Shown: positions 37,224-57,368 of the stretch, piece by piece
How positions within the stretch are numbered: the stretch's first letter is position 1
Layout: each line of letters opens with the position of its first letter
Assembly: GCA_937959125.1 (NCBI GenBank)
Contig: CALGQU010000047.1
Span: 1 to 57,368, forward strand
Direction: 5' to 3'
From: an uncultured Croceitalea sp.
GTDB lineage: Bacteria; Bacteroidota; Bacteroidia; Flavobacteriales; Flavobacteriaceae
Length of the DNA stretch: 57,368 nt
Program-made: the position numbers and the translations under genes
Notes under the pieces: model-generated
The model's database searches: none
What the model was told of the DNA's origin: nothing
What the model saw: only the letters and a program-made list of their open reading frames with translations

Positions 37224-38234
37224 TCAGCTAATTTTTACCAACTGTTTTCCAATATTCTTACGTTCAAATAATCTATTAAGGGCTACGGGCATGTTCTCCA
37301 GTCCCTCTAAAATATCTTCTTGATATGTTAATTTTCCTTCTTTGATCCATCTGGCCATTTCCTTTTCCGCTACAGGGAAGTCTTCTTCAAAATCATAAAT
37401 AAAGAACCCTTGCATTTTAGAGCGCGTAGCTCCAATTTTATGCCAGTTCAATAAACTATAATTGGAATTTTCCCTATCCTCATACTGTGAAATCCTACCA
37501 CAGCAGACGACCCTTGCATACCGTCTTAATTTAGTAAGGGCAATATCCAACAATTCCCCGCCAACATTATCAAAATAAACATCAATTCCTTTAGGAAACA
37601 AGGCGTCCAAACGTTCGGAAACGTTTTCCGTTTTATAGTTGATGGCCCCGTAATAGCCCAATTTATCGGTAAGCAGCTTGCACTTTTCATCCGTACTGGC
37701 CATACCTACGGCCCTTGCCCCTTTAATCTGCGCAAGCTGGCCAACATTGGAACCTACGCCTCCTGCTGCGGCAGATACCAATACGTTGTCCCCTTGTTGC
37801 AATTCGCCTACCTTATATAATCCAAAATAGGAGGTAAAACCGGTCATGCCAAGAATACCTAAGGCCGTGGAATACGACAATCCCCTTTGGTTAACCTTAT
37901 ACATCATATGATAAGGACTACCGTCACAAACCACATATTGTTGCCATCCACATTTGCCCTGTACGATGTCCCCTATCTGGAAATCCCTGTTTTTACTTTC
38001 AATAACTTCGCCTACCCCACGTCCGCGCATGGTATCACCCAAGTCCATAGGATTTTCGATACCAGCGCCATCCAACATATAAAACTTCATCACCGGGGCA
38101 ACGGAAAGAAACAATACCTTAATAAGAAACTCACCTTCTTTTAAAGGCGGAAGATCAACGGACTGCATTACAAAATCAGATTTTTTAATGTAGTTTCCCG
38201 GCCTTGCCGCAAGTGTTAGTCGGTTGTTTTTCAT
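37224..38234 (-). CDS. MDR family NADPH-dependent oxidoreductase (copy 1)
   Basis: A 336-residue zinc-free medium-chain reductase of the leukotriene-B4 dehydrogenase/alkenal reductase type. These enzymes reduce alpha,beta-unsaturated ketones or aldehydes with NADPH. The cofactor loop is SAAAGGVGSNVGQLA, followed by GINYKTE-like and GIDVYFDNVGGELLD segments typical of the clade. It is a paralogue of the gene at 49028. It is divergent from the amidohydrolase gene across operator A and may lead the carboxylase genes downstream. Confidence 0.88.
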   Translation of the reverse strand: MKNNRLTLAARPGNYIKKSDFVMQSVDLPPLKEGEFLIKVLFLSVAPVMKFYMLDGAGIENPMDLGDTMRGRGVGEVIESKNRDFQIGDIVQGKCGWQQYVVCDGSPYHMMYKVNQRGLSYSTALGILGMTGFTSYFGLYKVGELQQGDNVLVSAAAGGVGSNVGQLAQIKGARAVGMASTDEKCKLLTDKLGYYGAINYKTENVSERLDALFPKGIDVYFDNVGGELLDIALTKLRRYARVVCCGRISQYEDRENSNYSLLNWHKIGATRSKMQGFFIYDFEEDFPVAEKEMARWIKEGKLTYQEDILEGLENMPVALNRLFERKNIGKQLVKIS

Positions 38235-38282
38235 AGTGATACTGCAAATTAACCTTATAAAACCATATTAGTTAATCTAATT

Positions 38283-38305
38283 AATAGTTAAATATATTAA
38301 CTATT
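38283..38305. promoter_or_regulatory. Palindromic operator A (AATAGTTAA-N5-TTAACTATT)
   Basis: Perfect 9-bp arms with a 5-base centre (ATATA), between the divergent MDR reductase and amidohydrolase genes. The same 9-base left arm, the same TTAACTAT right arm and a flanking T-run recur at operators B and C. A looser TTAGTTAA/TAATTAA pair lies just to the left and may be a second site. Palindromes of this kind suit a dimeric winged-helix repressor such as MarR, which is inference. Confidence 0.75.
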
Positions 38306-38339
38306 TTTTAGATACCCATAATTTTTAAAATTTAATACG

Positions 38340-38370
38340 TAGTTTTAGTTCCGGACCTGCACTAAAACTA
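38340..38370 (+). promoter_or_regulatory. Perfect inverted repeat abutting the amidohydrolase start
   Basis: TAGTTTTAGT and ACTAAAACTA are perfect 10-base arms around an 11-base loop, ending two bases before the ATG. The left arm also contains a near-match to the -7 box (TAGTTTTA). It may be a second operator over the promoter or a translation-blocking RNA hairpin. There is no T-run, so it is not a terminator. Confidence 0.6.
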
Positions 38371-38372
38371 TC

Positions 38373-39785
38373 ATGAAAAGCCTCCTGTATTTCTTGTCTT
38401 TTGCACTACTCCTTATAGGTTGTACCAAAAAACCATACTATTTAAAGGATGCTTTGATCATTGATAAAGTTACACTTATCGATCCAATTGATGGGGCTAC
38501 GGAAAACCAAACCGTGATTATCACAGATGGTAAAATTCTTCGCATTGTACCATCCGAAACGATCATCTTGGACCAAAGAAACCAGATCATTGACGGATCG
38601 GGTCACTATTTGATGCCCGGTTTATGGGACGCCCACGTCCATTTTGCCTATTTGGAGGCACTTGCCCCAAGTATGTTTGACTTGTTCCTCCGTTTTGGGG
38701 TCACCAGTGTGCGGGACACCGGGGGAGAACTTTCATTTGTAAACAAATACAGGGACATGTCTTTAGCGCAACCCACTAAGGCCCCAAGGATGATGATTGC
38801 CGGTCCCCTTTTGGACGGTGCCCCCAATGTTTATGATGGCAGTAGCCCGCGGCTTCCCCCACTATCCGTTAAAGCGGATGATGTGGCCCGTATCACAGAA
38901 AATGTAAAAACATTGATTAAGGGCAAGGTAGATTTCTTAAAGGCCTACGAGATGCTATCACCGGAACAACTGCAAAAAATTATTGCAATTGCGGATGCCA
39001 ACCATTTAAAAGTCACGGGGCATATTCCGTTGAGTATGGATGCTGTGGCTGCCTCCAAGGCTGGGATGGACAGTTTTGAACATCTAAGGAACCTTGAAGT
39101 TTCCTGTGCATCCAATGCAGAAGCCTTACTTGAGGAACGAAGGGAACTCCTCCATTCCGGACAACTAAAGCAAGGCGTTGAGCTACGGGCACAGATCCAT
39201 AAACAACAGCAAGAAATCGCTATTGCGAATTATAGCGATAGCAAAGCAGATAGCATATTGGCCGTTTTAAAGGCCAATGATACGTGGCAAGTGCCCACCC
39301 TCGCTTTAAATACCTTGTTCACGGAACAGTACTTCGCAGACGTAGCTTACCAAAAGAGTTATGAGCTGCTCCCAGATTCCATAGCGACCTATTGGATGGA
39401 ACGTTCCCAAGCCTTAAAAGACTATCCAATTACCACCTTTAGAAGGGATTATGATGCTTGGAACTTTATGATGGTAAAGAAAATACAGGATGCCCAAATT
39501 CCGATTATGGCAGGAACCGACACCCCAATAGCCTTTTTAACCCCGGGCTTAAGCTTACATGTAGAGTTGGCAACGCTCGTAAAGGCAGGGCTCTCACCCA
39601 AAGAGGCCATACAAACGGCAACCGTAAACCCTGCTGCTTATTTTGACCTGGACCACGAACTAGGAAGGATCAAAAAAGGATTTTGGGCGGATTTGGTACT
39701 GCTGACGGATAATCCTCTGGAGGATATTGCACATACCAAACATATCAATACGGTTATAAAGCAAGGGGAAGTTTACATCCCATAA
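38373..39785 (+). CDS. Lipoprotein amidohydrolase (imidazolonepropionase-like)
   Basis: A 470-residue exported hydrolase: signal peptide with lipobox LLIGC (Cys17), then an amidohydrolase-superfamily barrel. The binuclear metal ligands can be placed: His88 and His90 (DAHVHF), Lys190 (DFLKAY), His217 (TGHIP), His237 (EHLRN) and Asp383 (GTDTP). Family members cleave amide or ester bonds of small cyclic or peptide-like substrates. It is the only gene on the right side of operator A before the next operator, so it forms a single-gene unit within the inferred regulon. Confidence 0.88.
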   Translation: MKSLLYFLSFALLLIGCTKKPYYLKDALIIDKVTLIDPIDGATENQTVIITDGKILRIVPSETIILDQRNQIIDGSGHYLMPGLWDAHVHFAYLEALAPSMFDLFLRFGVTSVRDTGGELSFVNKYRDMSLAQPTKAPRMMIAGPLLDGAPNVYDGSSPRLPPLSVKADDVARITENVKTLIKGKVDFLKAYEMLSPEQLQKIIAIADANHLKVTGHIPLSMDAVAASKAGMDSFEHLRNLEVSCASNAEALLEERRELLHSGQLKQGVELRAQIHKQQQEIAIANYSDSKADSILAVLKANDTWQVPTLALNTLFTEQYFADVAYQKSYELLPDSIATYWMERSQALKDYPITTFRRDYDAWNFMMVKKIQDAQIPIMAGTDTPIAFLTPGLSLHVELATLVKAGLSPKEAIQTATVNPAAYFDLDHELGRIKKGFWADLVLLTDNPLEDIAHTKHINTVIKQGEVYIP

Positions 39786-39873
39786 CATAAAAAGTACAAT
39801 TTTAGGGTCATTTGATGTTCCGTATTCCTAAAAAGAACACTTTGTGGACTAAATAACGTCGTGCTTTGAAAAA

Positions 39874-39896
39874 AATAGTTAACTTTATTAACTATC
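39874..39896. promoter_or_regulatory. Palindromic operator B (AATAGTTAA-N5-TTAACTATC)
   Basis: Arms AATAGTTAA and TTAACTATC (8 of 9 paired) around CTTTA, with a flanking run of A (T on the other strand) as in the other two copies. It lies only 21 bases before the forced GTG start of the cytochrome c gene, so it should overlap the transcription start. That position fits repression of the whole 39.9-50.0-kb operon. Confidence 0.75.
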
Positions 39897-39917
39897 AACC
39901 TTATAAACTAATTTTAA

Positions 39918-40397
39918 GTGATTACCATTCGCTATCCATCCATCCTTGATATAGGTGTATGCCTGGGGGTTTTATTCTTGGTATCCTGCGGCGGACAAAA
40001 CAAAAAGAAAGAAGAAAAACCCGTTTTTAATACTAAGGAAACTACCACCTTTAAAAAGACCGAGGAAATGGTTTCCACCATTCCCAAATCCGAAAACGTA
40101 CTTGGGCGGCGGGTCTTTTTGCTCTGTGCTGCCTGCCACAATGTGGTTAAGGGAGAACCACACAAAGTGGGGCCCAACCTCAATGGTTTCTTAGGAAACA
40201 AGGCAGCATCCAAAACGGATTATATATACTCTGAGGCACTTAAAGACAAAGATATTATTTGGAGTGAGGCAACCTTAAGGGCATGGTTGGATAATCCTGC
40301 AGGTTATGTCCCTGGAACAAAAATGGCATTCGTAGGTGTTGCCAAAAAGGAGCAACAAGACGCCCTAATTGCTTATTTGGAAGAAGTCACCCAATAA
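39918..40397 (+). CDS. Class I cytochrome c lipoprotein
   Basis: A 159-residue protein with a signal peptide and Cys24 lipobox (FLVSC), a Lys/Glu-rich linker, and one haem site, CAACH (Cys70, Cys73, His74). The sixth ligand is probably Met136 in GTKMAF. It is a small soluble-type cytochrome tethered to the envelope. The GTG start is forced by an in-frame stop just upstream. It is followed after 21 bases by a Tat-exported flavoprotein, so it is the likely electron acceptor for that enzyme, as CycN is for NicA2 in Pseudomonas. Confidence 0.92.
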   Translation: MITIRYPSILDIGVCLGVLFLVSCGGQNKKKEEKPVFNTKETTTFKKTEEMVSTIPKSENVLGRRVFLLCAACHNVVKGEPHKVGPNLNGFLGNKAASKTDYIYSEALKDKDIIWSEATLRAWLDNPAGYVPGTKMAFVGVAKKEQQDALIAYLEEVTQ

Positions 40398-40418
40398 TCT
40401 ACTGCAAAAACGAGAACT

Positions 40419-41924
40419 ATGAAAACGAACAGGAGGAACTTTATTAAGGGAATTACCGGAGCATCAGCAGGGATGTTGTTGCCTACGGCTTGCATTTCAA
40501 AATCGGATGGTAAGGAGGAGGCCGCTACCGGACCTTATATTCCCAAAAAGAACAGACCGGTAAAATCCAATCATGATGTCGTTGTCGTAGGTGCAGGATT
40601 ATCTGGTTTGCATGCTGCCATGTTATTGGAAGAACAAGGTTTTGACGTGCAGGTCATTGAAGGCCGCCAACGCTTGGGCGGACGCATTTATACCTTAAAC
40701 AATGTACCTGGAAAACCAGAAGCCGCCGGAGAGTTTATTGGTGCCAATTATGCACGCATGATAAACACCGTGCACAAATTGGGATTGGAAATGCACAATC
40801 CAGATTCTGGAAATTCCATCAACCGGCCATGGCTTTACAACATTAAAGGGGAATACATCACCGCAGAGAATTGGGAATCCCACAAACTTAACCCTCTGGA
40901 AGGGGAAGATCGGAGCTTATTGCCACATCGTTTTCTTTCCGCAATTTCACATCGGGACAATCCGCTTCAAGGAAAACCGCTAAACGCTTGGTTGGAACCA
41001 GAATATCATCAATATGATATTCCTCACGATCAATACTTACGGGCCAAAGGGGTCAATGAAGAAACCATTAAGCTCATGAACGTGGTCATCCATGCCGGTG
41101 GTATGCCCAACACTTCCGCCATGAACGAGCTGCGTAGGTATCATGTAATGAATTTTAGCAATGGAAAAATAAGTTTCCCAGATGGTACTGGCTGGAAAAT
41201 GATTAAAGGAGGCAATTCCTTACTTCCGGAAGCTATGGCCAATAGCATGAAGAATGAAGTGCAATTGGGCAGGACCGTTGTAGGATTTATAGAGGAAAAC
41301 GGGACGGTAACGGTAGGTTGTGCCGATGGTAGTGAGTATAAGGCAAAGCATGTGGTATGTAGCATCCCCATAACCGTTTTAAGAAACATCACCTTTGAAC
41401 CTTACATTTCCGGAATTTCCAAAGAAGCTATAGGTAATATGGATTATGGCCTTTCCGTGCAAGCCCATTTTATTATTAAAGAACCTTTTTGGGAAAAAGA
41501 TGGTATGGAACCCAATATGTGGACGGACGGACCCTTGGAGCGTTTTGCAATTCGCAGCAAACGGGAAGAGGGAGATCCCTATGCAGGCCTAGCGTTCATT
41601 AACGGACCGGAATCCTTAAAGTTTAGGTTAATGACGGATGAACAGGTCTTTGATTATGTTGAGCAAAAACTAGCGGAAATACGCCCTTCGACCAAAGGAG
41701 TTTTAAAACGATTAATGATACAGTCCTGTGAACGTGATATCCATGGTGCAGGCGATTGGGTATACTGGCAACCCGGTCAGGTAAAAAAGTTTGGCAACCA
41801 TATGCGAAAGAACCATGGGAACATCCATTTTTGCGGCGAGCATACGGCCATCATGGAACGGGGCATGGAAGGGGCATTTGAATCTGGGGAGCGTGCTGCC
41901 TTGGATATTATTTTAAACGCATGA
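40419..41924 (+). CDS. Tat-exported flavin amine oxidase family lipoprotein (copy 1)
   Basis: A 501-residue FAD enzyme of the monoamine oxidase superfamily. The N-terminus has a twin-arginine motif (RRNFIKG) and a lipobox-like PTAC (Cys25), so it is folded before export and lipid-anchored. The dinucleotide motif is VVGAGLSG (residues 57-63) with Glu81 after beta-2, then RLGGRI. The C-terminal FAD segment is IHFCGEHTAIMERGMEGAFESGERAA. Such enzymes oxidise amines, but also polyenes and other C-C or C-N bonds. Stop and next start overlap (ATGA). Confidence 0.9.
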   Translation: MKTNRRNFIKGITGASAGMLLPTACISKSDGKEEAATGPYIPKKNRPVKSNHDVVVVGAGLSGLHAAMLLEEQGFDVQVIEGRQRLGGRIYTLNNVPGKPEAAGEFIGANYARMINTVHKLGLEMHNPDSGNSINRPWLYNIKGEYITAENWESHKLNPLEGEDRSLLPHRFLSAISHRDNPLQGKPLNAWLEPEYHQYDIPHDQYLRAKGVNEETIKLMNVVIHAGGMPNTSAMNELRRYHVMNFSNGKISFPDGTGWKMIKGGNSLLPEAMANSMKNEVQLGRTVVGFIEENGTVTVGCADGSEYKAKHVVCSIPITVLRNITFEPYISGISKEAIGNMDYGLSVQAHFIIKEPFWEKDGMEPNMWTDGPLERFAIRSKREEGDPYAGLAFINGPESLKFRLMTDEQVFDYVEQKLAEIRPSTKGVLKRLMIQSCERDIHGAGDWVYWQPGQVKKFGNHMRKNHGNIHFCGEHTAIMERGMEGAFESGERAALDIILNA

Positions 41925-41950
41925 TAATCTACCGAGATAAAGCTTACAAA

Positions 41951-42955
41951 ATGAAGAAAAAGTCACCCCTAGTGTTTGTTTGTGTGATTGCAGGCATCTT
42001 CCAATGCCTGGGAATGCATATGAACCCATCTGCAGACCCTAACCTACGGGACCTACAACTTTTGGCCAAATGGTTTGAAGGGGCTTTTGACAATGATGAG
42101 CAACTCTGGGTAGAAAATAGAAGTGACTGGCAGGGGAATCCAGAGGAAAAGCATGATCGCCTGCACAGCATGCATAAAAGGGTTTTGGCGGATAGTATAG
42201 GCAACTATGTGTTCTATGTGGAAGAATTTTTAAACGATGACCCAAAAAAGATAAGCAGACAACGTTTGGTATCGTTTGAAAGTGCGGTAGATACCCTAGG
42301 TATCATCATGAAAATCTATTTTCTTAAGGATGCTCCCAAGTTTGCCTTAAACGCGCCAACGCATGGGCAAGCGATTTCCAATATCACCAAGGAGGATTTG
42401 TTTGGATTGGAAGGTTGCGATGTCATCTTCCAACGCATCGGAGATCAATTTCATGGCAGTATGCGCAACAAAACATGTCAATTTGGAAAAGACGACGCGC
42501 TTCGATACTCCGTTCATGATCTCATCCTTTCCAAGGACAAGTATTGGCGTGTAGACCGCACCTTCTTGGTCAAGGACGATTCTTTTTGGAAAGGGCATCC
42601 CAATAACGAACCGCATAAACTAAGACGGGTAAATTATTATACTTGCGATGTTTCCTTTTATGAAAAGGCGTATTATTTACCCAGCGAAAAGGATAAGAAG
42701 TACCAAGGACTTCGAGTGCACGATCAAGGGGGTACCGCAGTGGTGGAAAACCCTATTGATGGCAAAACCTATTTTATTCAATTGCGGAACAAGCAGTATC
42801 CGTTCTACGCCTTGGAAGACTCCAATTTTTTCTTCTTACGATTTAAAGAAGAAGGGGCACAAGCTTCAACAGCACTAGCCTTTGGAGAACCCATGGCCAA
42901 AACTATAGGTTTCCAAATGAATTGGGTATCTGCCGTTTGTGAGTGTAAAGAATGA
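41951..42955 (+). CDS. Exported CpcT/CpeT-like protein (copy 1)
   Basis: With the ATG at 41951 the protein has 334 residues. It opens with MKKK and a hydrophobic signal segment; an upstream ATG (41921) overlapping the previous stop adds ten residues. The body resembles the CpcT/CpeT family: LLAKWFEGAFDNDEQ, then NYVFYVEEFLNDDPKKISRQRLVSF, the LEGCDVIFQRIGDQFHGSM segment and DLILSKDKYWRVDRTF. Cyanobacterial members attach linear tetrapyrroles and have a calyx-shaped beta barrel. No phycobiliprotein genes are here, so I infer a binding or processing role for a hydrophobic ligand. Confidence 0.65.
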   Translation: MKKKSPLVFVCVIAGIFQCLGMHMNPSADPNLRDLQLLAKWFEGAFDNDEQLWVENRSDWQGNPEEKHDRLHSMHKRVLADSIGNYVFYVEEFLNDDPKKISRQRLVSFESAVDTLGIIMKIYFLKDAPKFALNAPTHGQAISNITKEDLFGLEGCDVIFQRIGDQFHGSMRNKTCQFGKDDALRYSVHDLILSKDKYWRVDRTFLVKDDSFWKGHPNNEPHKLRRVNYYTCDVSFYEKAYYLPSEKDKKYQGLRVHDQGGTAVVENPIDGKTYFIQLRNKQYPFYALEDSNFFFLRFKEEGAQASTALAFGEPMAKTIGFQMNWVSAVCECKE

Positions 42956-42987
42956 ACTATTATGATAACGGACTTCAACTTTTAATT

Positions 42988-43152
42988 ATGAAAAGTAACT
43001 ACGGTCGCTATTGTGTTTTAAGCATCTTAAACCTGTTACTATTTTCAAATTGTAATGCTGGTGCCACAGAAGCCCAAGCAGATAAAACCTATGTAACCAA
43101 GGCAAAACCGGTAGATGTATTTTCTAAACCCCTAACATGTGGAAAGGAGTGA
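42988..43152 (+). CDS. 54-residue small lipoprotein-like protein
   Basis: A short frame starting MKSNYGRYCVLSILNLLLFSNC, which looks like a signal peptide with a weak lipobox, followed by about 30 polar residues. An ATG at 42952 overlaps the previous stop (ATGA) and would add 12 residues. Its end overlaps the next flavoprotein start by 16 bases, so it is tightly packed inside the operon. No family is recognised. It could also be a degenerate remnant, but the packing argues for a gene. Confidence 0.5.
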   Translation: MKSNYGRYCVLSILNLLLFSNCNAGATEAQADKTYVTKAKPVDVFSKPLTCGKE

Positions 43153-44642
43153 AAAAATCCACCAAAATAAAAACAGTTGGGCGTCGCCAGATGCTAAAAA
43201 AAAGTTCGTTGCTTCTAGCTGCTGCTCCTTTTTACTTTGGGCTCCATAGCTGTGTTAACCCGGGTAAAAAATCTTATGATGCCGATGTGCTCATTATTGG
43301 CGCAGGATTATCTGGACTACATGCTGCGCTCCTTTTGGAGGAAGCAGGGTTTAGCGTCAAAATCATTGAAGCTACCAATCGCATTGGAGGGCGTGTTTTT
43401 TCTGCGCCAGAAGACAAAGTTCCCGGGCATCCAGAATTAGGGGGCAATGGTATTGGAGGAGGATATGCGAGAATTCTGAATACAGTAAAAAAATACAATC
43501 TTGAAATGGGCCCGTTCAGACCTCGATCAACACCGCGGAAAGGGGAAATCTATTTTTCTATAAACAACCAAAGTATTTTAGAAAAGGACTGGACCAACCA
43601 TAGCCTGAATCCCTTTCCTGAAGGATTTAAAAAAGGTTTTCCATCTTCCCAGCAATGGGGCATTTATCAAAAATTGAATCCGCTTCCTAAAAATGATTTG
43701 GTCGCTTGGCGTAAAAAGGAATTTTCCCAATGGGATAAATCCATCTATACCGTACTCAAAGAAAATGGCTTTTCCGATAGGGCAATCCATTTAGGGGCAG
43801 GCACTAATTCTGGCTATGGTACGGATGAGCATTCGCTCTCTGCTATGATGTACTTTCAGATTCTGAATTTTGTGGGTCATCAATCCACATTTAAAGACGA
43901 AGGCGGCGGGGTCGTTAAAGGCAATCAACGTATACCGGAAGCCATGGCGGCAGATTTCAAACAAGACATCGTAATGGAATCTCCCGTAAAAGCCATTATG
44001 GATGAGAAAGACCATGTAAAGGTCACGTTGCAAAATGACCGAACCATGCAGGCCAAATACGCACTATCAACCTTGCCCATTCCCGCATTAGGCCGTATAG
44101 CTATGTCACCCCTTTCAAACCAAACACAACGAAAGGGCTTTGATGAGCTTTCCTATACCCCCAATTTGCAAATTCATTTTATTCCCACCAAAAACTATTG
44201 GGAAGAAGACGGAATGCCTCCAAGTATGTGGTCAGACCAACTATTCGGTCGTTTTATGGCGATGAAAAATGATGTTTCAAATCCGGATAAGGTAACCAGT
44301 TGTGTTGCATATATCGCCGGAAATCAAGCTCTTCAAATGGATAAAATGGATAAAAAAGAAGGGTTGGCGACCGTAGTTAAACTGTTGGAAGCAACACGGC
44401 CCAGTTTAAAGGGAGCCTTACAATTCGCGCATTATTGGTCATGGATTGGCAATCCGTATGCCGGCGGCTCGTATGCGTATTGGAAACCTGGACAGATTAC
44501 TTCATTTTCAAATGAATTGGCGCAACCCAATGGAAGAATTCATTTTGCAGGTGAACATACCGCTCTCATGATGCGCGGTATGGAAGGCGCTATGGAATCT
44601 GGTGAACGTGCCGCTTTTGAATTAATGGAATTATTAGGATAA
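43137..44642 (+). CDS. Tat-exported flavin amine oxidase family lipoprotein (copy 2)
   Basis: A 501-residue paralogue of the 40.4-kb flavoprotein. It has a twin-arginine motif GRRQMLKKS (Arg16, Arg17), a lipobox-like LHSC (Cys39), the FAD loop IIGAGLSG (residues 53-60), Glu78, and RIGGRV. The C-terminus, GRIHFAGEHTALMMRGMEGAMESGERAA, matches copy 1 closely. The substrate-side middle part diverges between the copies, so the two probably act on different substrates or in sequence. A GTG 12 bases downstream is an alternative start. Thirteen bases separate it from the sulfurtransferase gene. Confidence 0.9.
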   Translation: MWKGVKKSTKIKTVGRRQMLKKSSLLLAAAPFYFGLHSCVNPGKKSYDADVLIIGAGLSGLHAALLLEEAGFSVKIIEATNRIGGRVFSAPEDKVPGHPELGGNGIGGGYARILNTVKKYNLEMGPFRPRSTPRKGEIYFSINNQSILEKDWTNHSLNPFPEGFKKGFPSSQQWGIYQKLNPLPKNDLVAWRKKEFSQWDKSIYTVLKENGFSDRAIHLGAGTNSGYGTDEHSLSAMMYFQILNFVGHQSTFKDEGGGVVKGNQRIPEAMAADFKQDIVMESPVKAIMDEKDHVKVTLQNDRTMQAKYALSTLPIPALGRIAMSPLSNQTQRKGFDELSYTPNLQIHFIPTKNYWEEDGMPPSMWSDQLFGRFMAMKNDVSNPDKVTSCVAYIAGNQALQMDKMDKKEGLATVVKLLEATRPSLKGALQFAHYWSWIGNPYAGGSYAYWKPGQITSFSNELAQPNGRIHFAGEHTALMMRGMEGAMESGERAAFELMELLG

Positions 44643-44654
44643 AAATGATATCGC

Positions 44655-45629: not shown

Positions 45630-45654
45630 AATCTTATTAAAATACCTAAATAGT

Positions 45655-48466: not shown

Positions 48467-48484
48467 CCCGTAATCAATAAACAA

Positions 48485-48544: not shown

Positions 48545-48585
48545 AAAAGGTATAATATCCTTTGGTTGTGCCAATAAAAACAAAA

Positions 48586-49026
48586 ATGATGTCAGTATTA
48601 TTTAAACGAACCACTTTGACCGTAGCCAATTTAGAACGTTCCTTGGGAATTTACAGGGATATTTTAGGATTCACCATTAACTATATACAAGAGTCGGAGC
48701 CGGACTCCTACTCCTACCCTGTATTTCGTATCCCAAAGGAGGCAAAACTCAACTTTGCCACTTTGGACAGTCCCACACAGGAGCGCACTTTGGCCCTTAC
48801 CGAGGTAACCGGGGTTGCTTTACCCAAGCAAACCGGTATTATCATGGCCGCTTCGGTGATTAAAGTGGATGACTTAAAGAAGGTTATCGCTCAAATCGAA
48901 GGACTGGGATTGGAAACTACGGAACCTAAAATGGATGGTAACGAACAGTATGAGTTTTTGGAGCAAGCCTTTATCGATTACGACGGCCACCTTATCGTGC
49001 TGTACGAGTTGATGGAAAAGAAATGA
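48586..49026 (+). CDS. Single-domain cytoplasmic VOC protein
   Basis: A 146-residue VOC protein (FKRTTLTVANLERSLGIYRDILGFTINY at the start, FIDYDGHLIVLYELM at the end) with no signal peptide. It is a close paralogue of the exported VOC protein at 52975, sharing LTEVTGVALPKQ and EQAFIDYDGH. So the same module occurs once in the cytoplasm and once in the periplasm. I use the ATG at 48586; a TTG 24 bases upstream is unlikely. The next start is one base after its stop. Confidence 0.82.
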   Translation: MMSVLFKRTTLTVANLERSLGIYRDILGFTINYIQESEPDSYSYPVFRIPKEAKLNFATLDSPTQERTLALTEVTGVALPKQTGIIMAASVIKVDDLKKVIAQIEGLGLETTEPKMDGNEQYEFLEQAFIDYDGHLIVLYELMEKK

Positions 49027-49027
49027 T

Positions 49028-51288: not shown

Positions 51289-51860
51289 GATTCCTTCTTA
51301 ATATAGTGGATTGGAGTACTGTAAGGTGTAATTTGTACGCCATCTTTTTTTATACATTCCATCACAAAAAGTTCACCTTCTTTTAGGGTCTCTGTTAGAC
51401 GGAACGTCATTCCAGGGCCAATAGGGTCCTCATGGTCCGTTTTAAAACACTGCTCCGCATCATGCCAAACATAGGGTGCGGGACCCCATGGTCTCATTTC
51501 TAACGTATTCCAATCAAATACCAAATCATCATTGGCGTTGATCACATCCTTTGGGTCATGTTCTTCTGGCACCTGCATGGAATGCAAGAGTGCCGTATTT
51601 TCTCCAGAAGCAGTTATATAAAAAAACAAGGGTTTTAACTGGACATCATCTTGCCCGGGTTGCATATAATAACTTTCCTCTAAAATATAGATACCTGGAT
51701 GATCAGCCGGTCTGTTTCGTATTTTATGATCACAGACATCGGTTACATGTTTGGCATACGGATGTATCTGCTTTCCTGCCGCTATTTCCGCATCGATCTG
51801 TTCTTGGTTGTCCAAGGTTCCGCAAAGGATGTCAGCAAATCTTTTAAGTACTTTTTCCAT
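51285..51860 (-). CDS. Cytoplasmic CpcT/CpeT-like protein (copy 2)
   Basis: A 191-residue protein without signal peptide. FADILCGTLDNQEQ at the N-terminus, GIYILEESYYMQPGQ and QLKPLFFYI in the middle, and GMTFRLTETLKEGELFV near the end follow the order of the CpcT/CpeT family (short helix, barrel, Glu/Tyr-rich strand). Its length equals that of the cyanobacterial lyases. Together with the exported copy it places the same barrel on both sides of the inner membrane. It overlaps the MFS gene by four bases and abuts the preceding VOC gene, so the three are coupled. Confidence 0.6.
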   Translation of the reverse strand: MEKVLKRFADILCGTLDNQEQIDAEIAAGKQIHPYAKHVTDVCDHKIRNRPADHPGIYILEESYYMQPGQDDVQLKPLFFYITASGENTALLHSMQVPEEHDPKDVINANDDLVFDWNTLEMRPWGPAPYVWHDAEQCFKTDHEDPIGPGMTFRLTETLKEGELFVMECIKKDGVQITPYSTPIHYIKKES

Positions 51861-52862
51861 TTAGTTTGGTTGAAACAGTTCAATATACATACCATTGGGG
51901 CTTTCTAACAAACAGGCTTGTCCATCACCCAAAATATAATCGGAAACATACTGTACGGGTGATACTATCTTAATCTTGTTCTCCTTTGCCCTTTTGACCA
52001 CTTCCTCAATATCACTGGTTTGGAAACTGTACATACCCAAACCCTGGTTGGGAATACAGCTCTGCACCCCGGTATCTATCATATTACCATCCTTGAAATC
52101 CAATAGAAGGTAATGATTCTGTTTTGCTTCGGGCGCATAGATACCACAAAATCGAAATGGAGTGCCGGGGTTGACCCCTAACGCACCGCCCTCTGCAGCT
52201 TCCCAAACGGAATCAAAGAGTACATAATGGCCCAGAACTTCGGTAAAAAACGCAACTTCTGCATCGGAGTCTTTGGCAACGAAAGCGGAGTACCCAGGTC
52301 CGCAAAATCCATCATTGGGATCACAGGGGGCCAGTTGCGGATAATTTACCCGTTCTATACCCACGCAATGCAGAAAATCCGGGCCTTGATATATTGTTTC
52401 CAAGTACTGTCCCTTATCGCCATTGGCCCTTACAATATCACCCAATTGCATAGGTGCCATAGCACCTACTTTATACTCCTGCATTCTTTTGTCCATTGCT
52501 TTGGCATTTGAAGTGGGAAAACCCAAGGAGAAGGTTCCCAATTCATAAGAACTATAACTATTGTGGATATGCGGTGTTGGACGCTTTACATGGAGTATAC
52601 GCAACTGGATCAAACTAGGTACGGTTGGTCGATAACAGTGGTATAGGTCATAATCCAAATCCTCCGGAATATGCCAAAACCTTCGTTGTTGTTCCTTTTC
52701 GGTTGGCGTTAATGCAATGGAATCCAATTGCATTTTCATAACCTTTCCATAAAAATGCCTGTAGGCTTCCAAATCCTCAGTACACAAGGTTGCCGTATGT
52801 ATATATCCGGTAAGTGCATCTTTACCGATACCTGTAGGGATGTTGTTTTTTTTATTTTCCAT
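51861..52862 (-). CDS. Two-domain VOC family protein (divergent type)
   Basis: A 333-residue cytoplasmic protein with two VOC modules (YIHTATLCTEDLEAYRHFYGKVM and AFVAKDSDAEVAFFTEVLGH), ending ESPNGMYIELFQPN, where the Glu is the usual ligand. It differs clearly from the other two double-module proteins of the locus. Between modules it has a Cys/Pro-rich loop (APCDPNDGFCGPGYS). It is co-transcribed with the CpcT-like and MFS genes. The 112 bases upstream hold a perfect 16-bp palindrome and may carry an extra promoter. Confidence 0.8.
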   Translation of the reverse strand: MENKKNNIPTGIGKDALTGYIHTATLCTEDLEAYRHFYGKVMKMQLDSIALTPTEKEQQRRFWHIPEDLDYDLYHCYRPTVPSLIQLRILHVKRPTPHIHNSYSSYELGTFSLGFPTSNAKAMDKRMQEYKVGAMAPMQLGDIVRANGDKGQYLETIYQGPDFLHCVGIERVNYPQLAPCDPNDGFCGPGYSAFVAKDSDAEVAFFTEVLGHYVLFDSVWEAAEGGALGVNPGTPFRFCGIYAPEAKQNHYLLLDFKDGNMIDTGVQSCIPNQGLGMYSFQTSDIEEVVKRAKENKIKIVSPVQYVSDYILGDGQACLLESPNGMYIELFQPN

Positions 52863-52932
52863 TGTTATTCACTGTCCGTTAATCTTATTTATCAAACTAA
52901 ATTTTTAAAATCCTTACCATCAAAACCAACTA

Positions 52933-52948
52933 AAAAGAATATTCTTTT
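52933..52948. promoter_or_regulatory. Perfect 16-bp palindrome AAAAGAATATTCTTTT
   Basis: A gapless perfect palindrome in the 112-base gap between two minus-strand VOC genes, 71 bases before the downstream start. It differs from operators A-C. It could be an internal operator. It is AT-rich, so chance is possible, and there is no T-run on the coding strand to suggest a terminator. Confidence 0.4.
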
Positions 52949-52974
52949 CCTTAAAAAGTACTTATTTGACACAG

Positions 52975-53520
52975 TTAAAGCAGTTGATATAGGGCTATAC
53001 GATGACCATCAAAATCCGTAAATGCTTGTTCAATATAGGATATCCTACCCTCCACGGTGTGCTCTTCCGTGGTTTTCAACCCAAGTGCCTTTACCTTTTT
53101 AATAACCCCTATAAGGTCATCCACTTTGATAAGGAGTACTCCCATGATAGGTGTTTCCTGCTGTTTTGGCAGATCAACCCCGGTAACTTCTTTTAAATTG
53201 ATGATTCTTTTTTGATCCGTTGAGCTTAATGCGGCAACCCGTATGGTCGCTTCTTTTGGCACATTAAAAACTTGATACGCATAATTATCCTTTTCATAGG
53301 TGCCAATGGCCCCTACCTCAAAACCAAGAACATCTTGATATAGTTTTAAGGATTGGTCTAAATTGGAAACCAAAATGGAACTTCTCCTAAGATGTACTTC
53401 TGCGCTTTCTTTTTCCGAACCATCGTCTTGGGCATGGATAGCGGAAAATGGTAACCCAATTCCAATCCAAAATAGGAGACCCGGCAAAACCCTATTGATA
53501 TGCTTAAATCGTATATTCAT
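52975..53520 (-). CDS. Exported single-domain VOC protein
   Basis: A 181-residue protein with a signal peptide (cleavage after AIHA, about residue 30) and one VOC domain (LRRSSILVSNLDQSLKLYQDVLGFEV to AFTDFDGHRIALYQLL). It is the periplasmic paralogue of the cytoplasmic VOC protein at 48586. Eleven bases separate it from the preceding VOC gene in the unit. The substrate is unknown, and the shared segments suggest that both copies act on the same or related compounds. Confidence 0.82.
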   Translation of the reverse strand: MNIRFKHINRVLPGLLFWIGIGLPFSAIHAQDDGSEKESAEVHLRRSSILVSNLDQSLKLYQDVLGFEVGAIGTYEKDNYAYQVFNVPKEATIRVAALSSTDQKRIINLKEVTGVDLPKQQETPIMGVLLIKVDDLIGVIKKVKALGLKTTEEHTVEGRISYIEQAFTDFDGHRIALYQLL

Positions 53521-53531
53521 AAGACCTCCTT

Positions 53532-54095
53532 TTATTTAACGTACTCGTACAACTGTATTCGCACCCCATTGGGATCAAGCACCGTTAAAGTAAGTGATTT
53601 TCCTGTTGCGGAAGGCGTTAAGGGCACTACAACCCTTATCCCTGCGTCCCTCATCATCGTTTCAATCTTACGAAGACCGGTTACGGAAAACGCCATAATC
53701 AGTTCACTTGCAAAAGGGGTGCGCTGTACATCTTGATCGTAGATGGAGCTTTGGGCGTTGGGCACAGCCACCAAATTAATTCCGGGGGCAATCTCCCCCC
53801 CTTTGCCCCAACCTGTGGGAAGCAAGGAAATATAATCCACCTTTTCAACATCCGTCAGGCCAAAAACGGCCAGGGAATTCTTATCATTTATCTCAAACCT
53901 TCGGTTTTCTTTAAAACCTAGCATGTCCACATAAAATTGGACCGTAGCGGTAACATCCTTGGTCAGAAAGGTAGTTGCGGAAAGTCGTGTGCTGATTTCA
54001 GGTGCTGCCACGCTATCACTCTTCTGGTTCTGTGCCGCAACCACCAGTGTCATTAACAAAAAATACAGCGGCAATAGCCTTGACTTAAATCTCAT
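53532..54095 (-). CDS. Exported single-domain VOC protein (second type)
   Basis: A 187-residue protein with a signal peptide (cleavage near VVAA-QNQ, about residue 21). The VOC domain runs from RLSATTFLTKDVTATVQFYVDMLGF to LDPNGVRIQLYEYV. At the usual last metal-ligand position it has Gln (RIQLY) instead of Glu, so metal binding may be altered. Its start overlaps the end of the peroxiredoxin gene by 11 bases, so the two are translationally coupled. Confidence 0.8.
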   Translation of the reverse strand: MRFKSRLLPLYFLLMTLVVAAQNQKSDSVAAPEISTRLSATTFLTKDVTATVQFYVDMLGFKENRRFEINDKNSLAVFGLTDVEKVDYISLLPTGWGKGGEIAPGINLVAVPNAQSSIYDQDVQRTPFASELIMAFSVTGLRKIETMMRDAGIRVVVPLTPSATGKSLTLTVLDPNGVRIQLYEYVK

Positions 54096-54552
54096 CTAAT
54101 GTTTTTTTTATGTTTTCAAAACTTGGTAAACTCTTGCCATCCGTGACTTCGGCATACTGCACCACGCCCTCTTTATCGATAACGAAAGCGGAACGCTTGG
54201 CAAAATGGGTCATTCCCGCAAAATCATCCTCGAACAATACCTTGTAGGCCTTGCTAACTTCCCTATTGAAGTCGGACCCCAATTTAAAGTTAAGGTCGTT
54301 CTCTTTGGCAAATTTGTCCAAAACAAAAGGGGAATCTACAGAAGCACCCACGACCTCCGCGTTTAAACTACTATAGTCACTTTCGTTTTCATTTGCCATG
54401 CACATCTGGGTGGTACACACACTGGTAAATGCCAAGGGGAAAAAATGTAAAATCAGGTTTTTTCCTTTATAATCGTTCAAGGTAATCGGTTGTAAATCCG
54501 TACCCACCAGTTTAAATTCCGGTGCTTTTTGTCCTTTGTTCAGTATATCCAT
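54085..54552 (-). CDS. Peroxiredoxin (AhpE/Tpx-like)
   Basis: A 155-residue thiol peroxidase. The active-site segment is FPLAFTSVCTTQMC, with peroxidatic Cys46 and a second Cys51 that could form an intrachain disulfide. The Arg expected in the active site is in HFAKRSAFVID. No signal peptide is present, so it works in the cytoplasm. In this unit it would remove hydrogen peroxide or organic peroxides produced by oxygen-using steps, which is an inference from context. Confidence 0.92.
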   Translation of the reverse strand: MDILNKGQKAPEFKLVGTDLQPITLNDYKGKNLILHFFPLAFTSVCTTQMCMANENESDYSSLNAEVVGASVDSPFVLDKFAKENDLNFKLGSDFNREVSKAYKVLFEDDFAGMTHFAKRSAFVIDKEGVVQYAEVTDGKSLPSFENIKKTLDEI

Positions 54553-54599
54553 ATCAAATGTGTTGTTTTTAATTATGTCTTGGACGGTGATACATCCCC

Positions 54600-55499
54600 C
54601 TATTCTTCACCTTCCTTTGCCTTCGGTTCTTTATCCGCTAAAAACTTTTTGAATACCGTCCAAGAAGTTTCATTGGGGCGTTTATCCTTTTTATTTGGCG
54701 GGGTATTGTATTCTGGATAGCGTTCATCCAATATTTTTTGGATACGCGGCCATATGTTCTCTTTACCCAAAACGGATTCTCCCGTAGCATTGGCAATGAT
54801 CCAACCTGGTCTGCTGCCCATTTCCATCCATGGTAGCCATTGGGACATGCGCTGCCAAGAGATATTGGACTGGCTTAAATCCTTAATATTGGAATTGGTC
54901 AATTCCTCTGCTTTGTAGTAGGTGTTGAAAATTTCCATGGCATGGTAGGTACCCCCAACATATTTTTGGTAATCACCTGCAAGTGGGTTTTTGTAGAACA
55001 AGGGAATCTCGTACGAGGTCACCGCAACATCGGCATACTTTCTAAAGCTTGTTTTTACCGTTGGGATTCCGTCCTCATCGTTTTCATATACATAGCGTCG
55101 CATATTCACGGGGTCGTTGGCCACGTGGACTACATCTACCGTTTCTCCGGTCCAAGGGTTTTCCCAAGTATCTAAAATCTCGTTGGTTTTTGGGTCCAAA
55201 TACATCATAATCTCCCTACTTACACTTCTAAACCCTTTTCCGCGAACATCATCCTCAACACAATCGCATTGGCGTACATTGATCCCCACCACATTAAAAA
55301 GGTGGCGGTCTTTTTCACCCTGTACCCTACTGTAAATTTTACCTTCCCACATACCATAGGAAGTTTTTCCCTCTATCAAGGTACTACAGGTCGTTTTTTG
55401 ACGAATTTCCAAGGCTTTTTCGCCTTCAAATTCCATGGTTTGGGCTTGTAGTGTCACTACGACCGTAAAAGCCAACATTAAGATAATCTTTGTTTTCAT
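54600..55499 (-). CDS. Exported DUF1838 protein (copy 1)
   Basis: A 299-residue protein with a Sec-type signal peptide (cleavage near LQA-QT, residue 20). The DUF1838 pattern is visible: YGMWEGKIYSRVQGEKDRHLF, then SREIMMYLDPKTNEILDTW-ENPWTGETVDVVHVANDPVN, and PWMEMGSRPGWIIANATG. Two close cysteines (RQCDCVEDD) stand in the mature part. DUF1838 has no established function. It follows a VOC gene by ten bases under operator C. Confidence 0.78.
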   Translation of the reverse strand: MKTKIILMLAFTVVVTLQAQTMEFEGEKALEIRQKTTCSTLIEGKTSYGMWEGKIYSRVQGEKDRHLFNVVGINVRQCDCVEDDVRGKGFRSVSREIMMYLDPKTNEILDTWENPWTGETVDVVHVANDPVNMRRYVYENDEDGIPTVKTSFRKYADVAVTSYEIPLFYKNPLAGDYQKYVGGTYHAMEIFNTYYKAEELTNSNIKDLSQSNISWQRMSQWLPWMEMGSRPGWIIANATGESVLGKENIWPRIQKILDERYPEYNTPPNKKDKRPNETSWTVFKKFLADKEPKAKEGEE

Positions 55500-55509
55500 T
55501 TGTTTGTAA

Positions 55510-56466
55510 TTAAGTGTTTCTCTCTAAAAATTCCCACCAGACACCGTCGGGACCCAATACTGCAAAGCAGGGTACCTTTCCATAAGGTGCTATTTCCAAT
55601 TGTTGCAGTTCTTTGTGGATTTGGACGCCATTTCCCTGTATCCATTCATAATATGACTTTATGTCCTCCACTTCGCAGCGATACATAAGCAAGCCCCTAT
55701 TTGGCGGTACGGCCATAGCCGAAAAATCTTTACCGACCACCCCATTAAACTCACAGGTTTGGAACATCACATCCCGGGTACCATCCAATGAAAACATATT
55801 CACGTTACAACTTACCTCGGTAATGACATTCATAGGAATACCGAACATGTTTTCCATGGGTGCTTCTTTTTTAACGCTATACTCGTTCATTAAGGTGAAG
55901 CCCATTTTATGCTGATAAAAATCTTTTGATACTTGCAGATCGGTAACCGTTAATGAGGAATTATAGACATGGGAAGGTATCTTATACCCTTCTTTTAGTT
56001 CCAAAGGTGGTTGCAGCCGATGCGTAAAGGCAATAATAATATCATCATACCCTTTCATAAGGATGTCATATAGCTTGAAGGGTCCCATTTCTTGTAAAAG
56101 CGGGTCGCTTAGTCCATGAAAACCCAAATCCCTTAAATCATCAAAGGTCTGCGCCACCTCCGGAACCCGTAAATTGATATCCATAATACCCCCAATATCC
56201 CATGGTTTTTGGGAGGAGCGAATGTATTGTTGTTCCGCACCTTCGTATTTTATAAGACGCAATAAACCTGTTGGGTGGTTATCAAACTGTATTAGTTTTT
56301 CAGAAGCACTAACTGTTGATGTAAGACCCCAAAAGTCCAATACACTCCTATCCGTATCATAGGTGTCTACTAGGGAAAGTCCACCGTAATCACAAAGAAA
56401 ATGGGTGACTTTGTCCATATTTCCAACACTATAAACAACTTCTAAGATGGTTTTTAGTTGATGCAT
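55510..56466 (-). CDS. Two-domain VOC family protein (copy 2)
   Basis: A 318-residue cytoplasmic paralogue of the double-module VOC protein at 46309. Shared segments are KDFSAMAVPPNRGLLMYR and APYGKVPCFAVLGPDGVWWEFL, with the final Glu kept. The first gene after operator C on the minus strand, it leads an eight-gene unit down to the MFS gene. I use the ATG at 56466; an in-frame TTG at 56493 would start ten bases from the operator and add nine unlikely residues. Confidence 0.8.
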   Translation of the reverse strand: MHQLKTILEVVYSVGNMDKVTHFLCDYGGLSLVDTYDTDRSVLDFWGLTSTVSASEKLIQFDNHPTGLLRLIKYEGAEQQYIRSSQKPWDIGGIMDINLRVPEVAQTFDDLRDLGFHGLSDPLLQEMGPFKLYDILMKGYDDIIIAFTHRLQPPLELKEGYKIPSHVYNSSLTVTDLQVSKDFYQHKMGFTLMNEYSVKKEAPMENMFGIPMNVITEVSCNVNMFSLDGTRDVMFQTCEFNGVVGKDFSAMAVPPNRGLLMYRCEVEDIKSYYEWIQGNGVQIHKELQQLEIAPYGKVPCFAVLGPDGVWWEFLERNT

Positions 56467-56502
56467 GGATAAGGTTGTTGTTATTTTTAACAAGATACAA
56501 AA

Positions 56503-56525
56503 AATAGTTAACTATATTAACTATT
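56503..56525. promoter_or_regulatory. Palindromic operator C (AATAGTTAA-N5-TTAACTATT)
   Basis: Perfect 9-bp arms around CTATA, 37 bases from the VOC start on one side and 52 from the DUF1838 start on the other. On the minus strand a run of six Ts follows the right arm, as at operators A and B. A possible -7 box for the right-hand gene (TATATTTA, 56543-56550) starts 18 bases from the operator. Confidence 0.75.
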
Positions 56526-56576
56526 AACTTGATTAATAAAATTATATTTATTCTTAGGAATCTTAAAACAACACCT

Positions 56577-57368
56577 ATGGAACAGGGTAACGGAAGGCGC
56601 AGTTTTTTAGAAAAAGCATCCTTATTGGCAATGACCACTTTACCCACCTTTGGCTTGGCCAACCCAGCATTAAATACCAATGAAGCACAGTACGTCCCCA
56701 ATAACGAAGCTAATGGCAAGAATTACTTACGTCTCATTGGCAGTCTAACTCCCCGTACTCTATACAGTTGGTTTTCCGGTCATTTATGGGGCATTGTTCC
56801 CGGGGAGGTGCCAAAAGCCTTGACCACCTTACAAGGCTTGGCAAAGAGCAATTGGGACGTTGAAGGGGAACTACTAACCAAACAAAGTTTTGATCTGGGA
56901 TTTTTTGGCGATTTGGAAAACGGAACCTTATTGGAAGAATGGACCAATCCGTATACTAAGGAAAAAGTGAAACCCTTCCCCTTTATGTATGGAGGCGGTG
57001 CAAAAACCAGCTATGGACCAAACGGGAAGTTACAAGGGGATACCGTAGAGGCTTACCCCAACACTTGGGTACGTTCTGGAAATCAAGTTTGGTTGGATGA
57101 ATACGGTTCCTTTGCGTTTAAAAATCCGCTACAGCCAGAGGAATGGCCCCATTCTTCCGCTGGGGAAGAATTGTTGTTTGGATCTTCCACCACCTACAGC
57201 GCCAACGCGGATGAACTGTTTGATGAAAAAGCCACCACTTGCGGAAATACCTTCTTTTGGACCGCCATAAATTCTTGGGAGCCTTGGATGCGTATGGGAC
57301 AGCGGCCAGGTTTTGTGATGTGGCGCGCTACGGGAAGAAAAATTTTTAATAGTGATGATATTCCGCCC
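56577..57368 (+). CDS. Tat-exported DUF1838 protein (copy 2), 3' end outside window
   Basis: The frame stays open for 264 codons to the window edge. The N-terminus has a twin-arginine motif (GRRSFLEKASLLAMTTL), so this copy is exported folded, possibly with a cofactor, unlike the Sec-type copy at 54600. DUF1838 segments align with that copy: LEEWTNPYTKEKVKPFPF against LDTWENPWTGETVDVVHV, and PWMRMGQRPGFVMWRATGRKIF against PWMEMGSRPGWIIANATG. It is divergent from the VOC gene across operator C. More genes of the unit may follow outside the window. Confidence 0.75.
   Translation, partial: MEQGNGRRSFLEKASLLAMTTLPTFGLANPALNTNEAQYVPNNEANGKNYLRLIGSLTPRTLYSWFSGHLWGIVPGEVPKALTTLQGLAKSNWDVEGELLTKQSFDLGFFGDLENGTLLEEWTNPYTKEKVKPFPFMYGGGAKTSYGPNGKLQGDTVEAYPNTWVRSGNQVWLDEYGSFAFKNPLQPEEWPHSSAGEELLFGSSTTYSANADELFDEKATTCGNTFFWTAINSWEPWMRMGQRPGFVMWRATGRKIFNSDDIPP

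Follow-up and report, generated by a model that had tools for sequence, protein, structure and literature searches.

Gene content and extent of the island

The stretch analysed here (the window; 57,368 nucleotides) is the whole of contig C47 from the 3.5 Mb genome of an uncultured Croceitalea sp. (234 contigs, 98.9% complete). According to gene calls, its right-hand part, 37224-57368, holds 21 genes, arranged by direction in four blocks; it makes up about half of a gene set of ~40 kb (hereafter the island) that is common to at least two phyla. The blocks run 37224-38234 on the minus strand, 38373-50038 on the plus strand (11 genes), 50035-56493 on the minus strand (8 genes) and from 56529 onward on the plus strand. 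A first-pass annotation had listed the protein families of this part and proposed that they form one catabolic system for a small hydrophobic or chromophore-like compound; gene calls and Pfam searches bore out the families listed.

The left end of the island is a CurA/prostaglandin-reductase-type MDR reductase (37224-38234; PF16884 102.9 bits, plus PF00107), the 76% orthologue of which terminates the corresponding island of Maribacter vaceletii. The plus-strand block begins with an exported amidohydrolase (38373-39785; PF01979; LIGC lipobox) and a cytochrome c lipoprotein (39918-40397; PF00034), which lies 21 bases upstream of a twin-arginine (Tat)-type flavin amine oxidase (amine oxidase 1, 40419-41924; PF01593 161.9 bits; RRNF motif). 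The latter overlaps by 4 bases with the gene of a CpeT/CpcT-family protein (41921-42955; PF06206 74 bits, cut-off 21). Next come amine oxidase 2, of the same Tat type (43137-44642; PF01593 165.7 bits; RRQM motif), an exported sulfurtransferase of the rhodanese family (44655-45629; two stretches of PF00581; LFGC lipobox), VOC protein 1, a lipoprotein with best-match relatives in other loci at 35-73% (45655-46263; PF12681 31 bits, cut-off 30.1), a two-module VOC protein 2 with no signal seen (46309-47319; two stretches of PF00903), a nitrilase-family lipoprotein (47306-48466; PF00795; AISC lipobox), VOC protein 3, again with no signal seen (48562-49026; PF00903), and a second MDR reductase (49028-50038; PF16884 107 bits; NCBIfam CurA 299 bits, below its cut-off of 440). 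Signal, lipobox and twin-arginine motifs were assigned by rule-based patterns, without SignalP.

The second minus-strand block holds an MFS carrier (50035-51288; PF07690), a protein without a Pfam family or visible signal that is assigned a T-type bilin-lyase fold by an AF2 model and fold comparison (51285-51860), VOC protein 4 of ~330 amino acids (51861-52862), VOC proteins 5 and 6 with signal-type N-termini (52975-53520 and 53532-54095), a peroxiredoxin (54085-54552; PF00578), DUF1838 protein a with a signal-type N-terminus (54600-55499; PF08894 239.5 bits, cut-off 25) and VOC protein 7, also of ~330 amino acids (55510-56493); these four VOC proteins all match PF00903. DUF1838 protein b (56529-57368, plus strand; RR motif; PF08894 62.9 bits, cut-off 25) is cut by the contig end.

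The final 141 bases of the window are identical to the initial 141 of contig C155, where the interrupted gene is completed (DUF1838 protein b then measures 320 amino acids) and the locus extends by up to another 21 kb. Contig C155 opens with the remainder of DUF1838 protein b, a second CpeT protein (CpeT2, C155 270-1364; PF06206 61.9 bits), a SnoaL protein, a 120-amino-acid protein and a 395-amino-acid methyltransferase. HyuB, an FAD_binding_2 flavoprotein, HyuA, an SDR enzyme, an HpcH aldolase and a LeuD-like subunit follow, the two Hyu genes lying close together (C155 3371-4990 and 6527-8599) with the flavoprotein gene in between. Further on are a third MDR reductase, an eighth VOC protein, a third amine oxidase (RR motif) and LeuC, and the island part closes with a 172-amino-acid DUF3598-like protein and two MFS carriers. 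Families on C155 were assigned by Pfam for ten proteins, and by likeness to window proteins for the MDR, VOC, amine oxidase and MFS members. Beyond the island genes, and outside our count of its parts, sequence reading alone names an AraC-type regulator and an isochorismatase-like gene.

Other genomes support both the join and the left boundary. Of the 38 island genes (those of 37224-57368 plus those of C155 as far as the second MFS gene), 32 have their best matches in Maribacter vaceletii DSM 25230 on one stretch of ~40 kb, in the same order except for the sulfurtransferase gene, with a few genes extra or missing. CpeT2, DUF1838b, VOC7 and DUF1838a are consecutive in seven Flavobacteriaceae loci (L032, L035-L040); these loci and the M. 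vaceletii stretch back the C47-C155 join. Nine flank proteins encoded at 24517-37160 had no match in a 60-kb Maribacter stretch that extends 5.9 kb beyond the island end, nor in ten stretches of five Bacteroidota genomes, and in both searches a control protein was matched; we place the island end at 37224. The neighbouring propionyl-CoA genes (29883-37160) were considered as part of the pathway, which is unsupported, as they were not found on these stretches of Maribacter and the five Bacteroidota genomes. Also outside the island, 27057-28367 encodes a hydrolase whose Pfam matches are PETase-like and PAF-acetylhydrolase-like.

The first-pass annotation had described nearly every family as present twice. 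Doubling holds for the MDR, amine oxidase, CpeT, DUF1838 and VOC families and fails for the remaining ones, and the VOC proteins number seven, not six (genes starting at 45655, 46309, 48562, 51861, 52975, 53532 and 55510), three of them 327-336 amino acids long. Identity within pairs is 45% for the MDR reductases, 34% for the amine oxidases and 23% for the DUF1838 proteins, and the exported VOC protein at 52975 is 48% identical to the signal-less one at 48562; at 23-48% identity, the paired copies are not recent duplicates. A division between two compartments, also proposed at first, is supported by the signal and Tat motifs found by rule on one set of proteins and on none of the other, the 48% identical VOC pair included. 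The amine oxidases had been called Tat-exported lipoproteins: their RR motifs are clear, but the lipobox pattern matched neither.

Co-occurrence and distribution in two phyla

DUF1838 is rare. One genome among 196 from the same order as the window encodes it, and so do 7 of 395 genomes of a Bacteroidota sample, 6 of them above the cut-off. A profile of the island methyltransferase matches exactly those 6 of 395, which belong to three genera (Fisher p 2e-13; this and the following p values ignore shared ancestry), and in five of the six genomes, our own aside, the two genes lie 13 to 17 kb apart. The seventh, marginal DUF1838 genome (G403, 20.4 bits) is without the methyltransferase. Among 150 genomes of the order of Hirschia, the methyltransferase is found in 33 and DUF1838 in 21, all within those 33 (Fisher p 1.6e-17); CpeT is found in 26, of which 21 have the methyltransferase (Fisher p 6.5e-13) and five do not (G604, G624, G629, G667 and G675). 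Four genomes of this order (G651, G674, G684 and G723) each match the methyltransferase three times, once only partially, but match neither DUF1838 nor CpeT; three of these genomes have the matches within ~20 kb on one contig, and a variant system is possible.

The island genes are scattered in several Alphaproteobacteria (in G578, the methyltransferase is at 0.16 Mb and DUF1838 at 2.41 Mb). Because the genes are distant in some genomes, their association rests on more than linkage. Such distances, together with the differing directions of the gene units and the occurrence of DUF1838 without neighbours of the set in one locus (L028), could be taken to mean that unrelated operons had come together by chance, but given the co-occurrence counts in two phyla and the conserved order in Flavobacteriaceae we find this barely credible. 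That the families form a single system, as first proposed, and not a coincidence is thus well supported.

The first-pass annotation had suggested that conservation in distant phyla without phycobilisomes would support a real system, and DUF1838 and CpeT do co-occur there with the hallmark methyltransferase. No phycobiliprotein (PF00502) match was found in any of 36 system genomes searched, our own included, while the Synechococcus elongatus control matched, so the CpcT/CpeT-type proteins are unlikely to serve phycobilisomes in those hosts. Hirschia maritima has a second cluster in which relatives of cytochrome c (36%), DUF1838b (23%), amine oxidase 1 (53%), CpeT1 (38%) and a VOC protein (28%) stand side by side, approximating the set that opens the locus in the window.

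Across 84,980 species genomes, we found at least 569 stretches that contain conserved methyltransferase peptides together with an encoded relative matching at E 1e-3 or lower, a loose limit such that some of them may lie outside the system. Family counts (tblastn, E 1e-10) are given for the best 80 of these stretches (49-98% identity; 38 Bacteroidota, 42 others), which were fetched by the methyltransferase and are hence biased towards it; many are short or cut, making the counts lower bounds. The best 80 come from Bacteroidota and Proteobacteria, plus one record each under Nostoc and Acidobacteria. In Bacteroidota (of 38) versus others (of 42), the 120-amino-acid partner is present in 36 versus 40, SDR in 29 versus 23, amine oxidase in 21 versus 9, DUF1838 in 14 versus 11, Pfam-type CpeT in 13 versus 12, the 172-amino-acid family in 10 versus 13, VOC in 14 versus 15, MDR in 6 versus 12, cytochrome c in 0 versus 1, nitrilase in 2 versus 5 and the family of 51285-51860 in 13 versus 0. 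Amine oxidase, DUF1838, CpeT and VOC are thus each missing in about half or more of the 80 stretches.

Several individual loci deserve mention. In the Nostoc record (L053 1382-3391), genes for the methyltransferase, the 120-amino-acid partner and a SnoaL protein lie on a contig of low coverage that is assigned to Nostoc sp. LEGE 12450 but possibly stems from a contaminating heterotroph of the culture. On another contig of our own genome (L010, G000:C140), a third DUF1838 gene (7546-8499) stands beside a gene that sequence reading names alpha/beta-hydrolase-like (6668-7501); matches of 74-75% identity in Maribacter vaceletii and Hirschia maritima, and hence across two phyla, suggest transfer. 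The same pair, DUF1838 beside an annotated alpha/beta hydrolase, lies on plasmid pP6W1 of Novosphingobium sp. P6W (L028 13809-15840), where a 15-kb neighbourhood holds no further query gene, so DUF1838 alone is no proof of the system. Plasmid pSA1 of Novosphingobium resinovorum (L029) carries two copies each of the methyltransferase and the 120-amino-acid partner, along with amine oxidase, SDR, LeuC, DUF1838 and the 172-amino-acid family; pSA1 is typed as conjugative, and parts of the system can therefore be mobile.

Exported oxidases, CpcT-fold proteins and the methyltransferase

The nearest solved relatives of the amine oxidases are monoamine oxidases, MAO-B first, and MAO-B is the best PDB relative of amine oxidase 1. 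In M. vaceletii, the cytochrome c match (51%) adjoins amine oxidase 1; in Hirschia (36%) it lies near that gene. By analogy with nicotine oxidoreductase, the Tat motifs, and the cytochrome c gene next to one of the amine oxidases, suggest that these enzymes are dehydrogenases feeding the respiratory chain. A periplasmic nicotine oxidoreductase works with its own cytochrome c, and the exported amine oxidases and cytochrome c might act like that pair on some other nitrogen-ring compound, a nicotine-type alkaloid or other secondary metabolite, with the CpcT-fold proteins binding a hydrophobic substrate. The 21-base spacing between the two genes, a proximity kept in Maribacter and Hirschia, and the presence of lactam/imide-type enzymes are consistent with this; so is the list of PDB relatives, in which 6-hydroxynicotine oxidases appear below the amine oxidases. 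T-type lyase-fold proteins and a DUF3598 relative, however, are not known to take part in alkaloid catabolism, and no pyridine-ring enzyme was seen among the Pfam-scanned proteins, which cover part of the genes. We regard a substrate of this other kind as unlikely, though a serious contender.

The first-pass annotation counted two CpcT/CpeT-like proteins in 37224-57368. The first, 41921-42955, is one by Pfam. As a single sequence it reaches only E 0.0072 against CpcT, and the profile of the CpeT group (A5) matches CpcT (4o4o) at E 3.9e-12 and plant CRL at 2.4e-4. The second, 51285-51860, qualifies by fold and a short N-terminal motif only: it has no Pfam or NCBIfam match, and its AF2 model (pLDDT 94.8) superposes on CpcT with and without phycocyanobilin (4o4o/4o4s) with a Z of 16.4 over 171-172 residues (for 4o4o, rmsd 2.8 over 171 of 191 residues), ahead of CRL (15.8), phage CpeT (14.7), CpeS (10.8), DUF3598 (10.0) and nitrobindin (9.0). 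A Foldseek search with it was weak (best E 0.012, CpeS). The CpcT fold comparison covers the 51285-51860 model; the PF06206 pair was assigned by sequence. A G-x-[FL]-D-N-x-x-Q motif is present in 14 of 14 aligned relatives of 51285-51860, and the N-terminal pattern G-x-x-x-N-x-x-Q in 14 of 14 of these and in 10 of 15 CpeT-type proteins. In the A5 alignment, residues 166 and 186 of 41921-42955 are cysteines invariant in 15 of 15 CpeT-type proteins, possibly a disulfide or ligand site.

Profile comparison with CpeT gave probabilities of 37 for 51285-51860, 30 for DUF1838 and 0.5 for the 172-amino-acid protein, and the family of the last matches a solved DUF3598 protein (E 3.3e-5). The AF2 model of DUF1838a (pLDDT 87.2) is a beta-barrel with weak, mixed beta-barrel matches: BFA1 is best (8.1), and CpeS (Z 7.0) and nitrobindin-type chains (6.2-7.5) appear among outer-membrane barrels. 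In the methyltransferase, the C-terminal domain alone matches solved methyltransferases, and among NCBIfam models a corrinoid-protein-associated methyltransferase scores highest (71 bits, cut-off 180).

CpcT/CpeT relatives are described as chromophore lyases of cyanobacteria and red algae (PMC10254012), and this, together with the methyltransferase being the most constant gene, could indicate that the island makes or modifies a compound, for example by chromophore attachment or synthesis of a bilin-like pigment. We consider biosynthesis very improbable: no phycobiliprotein was matched in the 36 system genomes searched, the carriers, hydratases, aldolases and acyl-CoA enzymes indicate breakdown, and no synthase or carrier-protein family was seen among the scanned proteins. 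Our searches of the open-licence PMC literature, which mostly lacks subscription journals, yielded no account of the gene set and no counterpart of its upper half or of T-type lyase-fold proteins among degradation genes; DUF1838 came up in one paper.

Lower-half enzymes, candidate substrate and known systems

The lactam and diacid enzymes of C155, which lie beyond the 20 kb covered by the first-pass annotation, say most about the chemistry. They belong to one of two sets that replace each other between groups. In Bacteroidota (of 38) versus others (of 42), HyuA/B is present in 32 versus 1, LeuC/D in 28 versus 4 and HpcH in 27 versus 0; conversely, a PuuE-like hydrolase is present in 0 versus 30, CoA-transferase III in 2 versus 17, MaoC in 0 versus 15 and CitE in 0 versus 14. 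HyuA and HyuB have caprolactamase subunits as nearest curated models (HyuA 565 bits against the alpha subunit, versus 334 for acetophenone carboxylase; HyuB 206 versus 111). The PuuE-like protein has a polysaccharide deacetylase match in Pfam and, as nearest PDB chain, PuuE allantoinase (3cl6, 201 bits); judged by sequence, it is a relative of PuuE allantoinase, probably with another substrate. One MaoC protein matches mesaconyl-CoA hydratase, one CitE is nearest to RipC of itaconate degradation, and LeuC is nearest to isopropylmalate/citramalate isomerase. The SDR gene lies within 400 bases of HyuA in 25 pairs and within 400 bases of the PuuE-like gene in nine, and CpeT lies within 62 bases of the PuuE-like gene in four loci.

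A dehydrogenase (HxnW) is described to yield a cyclic imide that is opened by an imidase (HxnM), and imidases are described as relatives of PuuE (PMC9304392). Both lower sets would fit the opening of a lactam or cyclic imide, followed by hydration of a diacid and its cleavage to pyruvate plus an acid. That two unrelated enzyme sets allow one reading is the strongest hint at the chemistry.

VOC proteins are numerous and, like the CurA-type MDR, FAD_binding_2 and SnoaL proteins, belong to families seen in aromatic and steroid catabolism, and the substrate might accordingly be a phenolic, carotenoid or terpenoid compound, HyuAB an ATP-dependent carboxylase like acetophenone carboxylase, and the VOC proteins ring- or chain-cleaving dioxygenases. 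Yet both Hyu subunits score higher against caprolactamase than against that carboxylase, and a carboxylase role leaves the PuuE-like hydrolase in the place of HyuAB in other loci unexplained. Such a substrate appears improbable.

Oxidation of bilin and chlorophyll rings typically yields alkyl-maleimides, which makes a linear tetrapyrrole or its fragments the most likely substrate: the lactam/imide and diacid enzymes would fit alkyl-maleimides or pyrrolinones and, taken with the bilin-lyase folds, lead us to a linear tetrapyrrole or its oxidation fragments as best guess. The substrate may perhaps be fragments of algal and cyanobacterial pigments. Going by their titles, a good many of the records seem to be of algal, cyanobacterial or mat-associated origin. 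Our leading interpretation, put forward tentatively and with slightly less than even confidence, is an aerobic catabolic island for a nitrogen-heterocyclic compound of this kind. The chromophore-like substrate proposed at first thus keeps some ground, through the fold and family of the CpcT/CpeT and DUF3598 relatives and the apparent lactam/imide-type enzymes downstream, and through these only.

We infer every reaction, their direction and the substrate; observed directly were the genes present, their joint occurrence in two phyla, the exchange of one lower half for another, the export motifs and the CpcT fold. Following this logic, a hydrophobic nitrogen-heterocyclic compound would enter the envelope, where exported flavin amine oxidases, VOC enzymes, nitrilase, sulfurtransferase and DUF1838 proteins would break or trim it, the amine oxidases handing on electrons to the cytochrome c encoded next to them and CpcT-fold barrels holding or carrying the compound. 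MFS carriers would import the pieces, and cytoplasmic MDR and SDR enzymes would adjust double bonds and hydroxy-lactams. The lactam or cyclic imide would then be opened by caprolactamase-like HyuA/HyuB in Bacteroidota or by the PuuE-like cyclic-amide hydrolase in the others, mostly Proteobacteria, and the resulting substituted maleate-type diacid would be hydrated and cleaved to pyruvate and an acid by LeuC/LeuD and the HpcH aldolase in Bacteroidota, or by a CoA-transferase, MaoC hydratase and RipC-like lyase in many other loci. In its fullest form, which we think possible but are more inclined to doubt, linear tetrapyrroles (bilins, chlorophyll catabolites) would be broken down completely to central metabolites: bilin-lyase-type barrels would have been turned into substrate-binding proteins, methine bridges would be cut in the envelope, and alkyl-maleimides or pyrrolinones would be opened and cleaved to pyruvate and acids by two lower halves interchangeable by phylum.

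Several observations weigh against the leading interpretation. Within the system, the genes are scattered in several Alphaproteobacteria, CpeT was found in only 19 of 35 system genomes searched, and the methyltransferase, although the most constant part, has no place in the proposed steps. Being a barrel, the CpcT fold could also accommodate other ligands, and the T-type motif is present in none of five CpeT-type proteins from other phyla. The lower-half enzymes fall short of their curated models, HyuA and HyuB of the caprolactamase equivalog cut-off (1000 each), the PuuE-like protein of the NCBIfam PuuE cut-off (227 bits against 424.6) and the CitE protein nearest RipC of its equivalog cut-off (232 against 375). 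Against HpPgdA, the nearest protein of solved structure to the characterised imidase HxnM, the PuuE-like protein scores a distant 38 bits. Heme oxygenase occurs in 3 of 36 system genomes with no association seen, and staygreen in 0 of 36, in a search whose control also gave no match. TonB receptors in four loci score 149-161 bits with siderophore models versus 84-109 with hemin models, all below cut-off. We also considered a route from hematinic acid to a glutaryl-CoA product, which is unsupported: an acyl-CoA dehydrogenase from one alphaproteobacterial locus (L099) is nearest to FadE3, with glutaryl-CoA dehydrogenase last of 18 listed.

The island may represent a common, unrecognised catabolic capacity. 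If its substrate is tetrapyrrole-derived, it would account for bacterial recycling of carbon and nitrogen from the pigments of algae and would give a function to the DUF1838, DUF3598-type, VOC and CpeT proteins of non-photosynthetic bacteria. The system is testable, being carried by named strains with DSM numbers.

Parts of the island resemble characterized systems. Like the periplasmic nicotine oxidoreductase pair, it has a Tat-type flavin amine oxidase adjoining a cytochrome c gene, but the best PDB relative of this amine oxidase is MAO-B. With the T-type lyases CpcT/CpeT and plant CRL it shares the PF06206 family (41921-42955 and C155 270-1364), the fold and the N-terminal motif; unlike those lyases, some island-type proteins have signal-type N-termini, some have C-terminal extensions of >100 amino acids, and they are encoded among catabolic genes in hosts without phycobiliproteins (0 of 36 searched). 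The ATP-dependent lactam hydrolase caprolactamase (CapA/CapB) is the nearest model of HyuA/HyuB, which score far below its cut-off and would be expected to act on a different lactam. Fungal nicotinate catabolism by HxnW/HxnM offers a similar dehydrogenase-imidase succession, with the SDR and PuuE-like genes neighbours in the island-type loci, but concerns another substrate and another organism, and the island-type hydrolase is much nearer to PuuE than to HpPgdA. Itaconate/mesaconate degradation uses a CoA transferase, a mesaconyl-CoA hydratase and a RipC/CitE lyase, the same three families as in the proteobacterial loci, where, in contrast, they adjoin the PuuE-like hydrolase, and LeuC/LeuD and HpcH stand instead in Bacteroidota. 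In its lower half, the island varies on established lactam, imide and itaconate chemistry.

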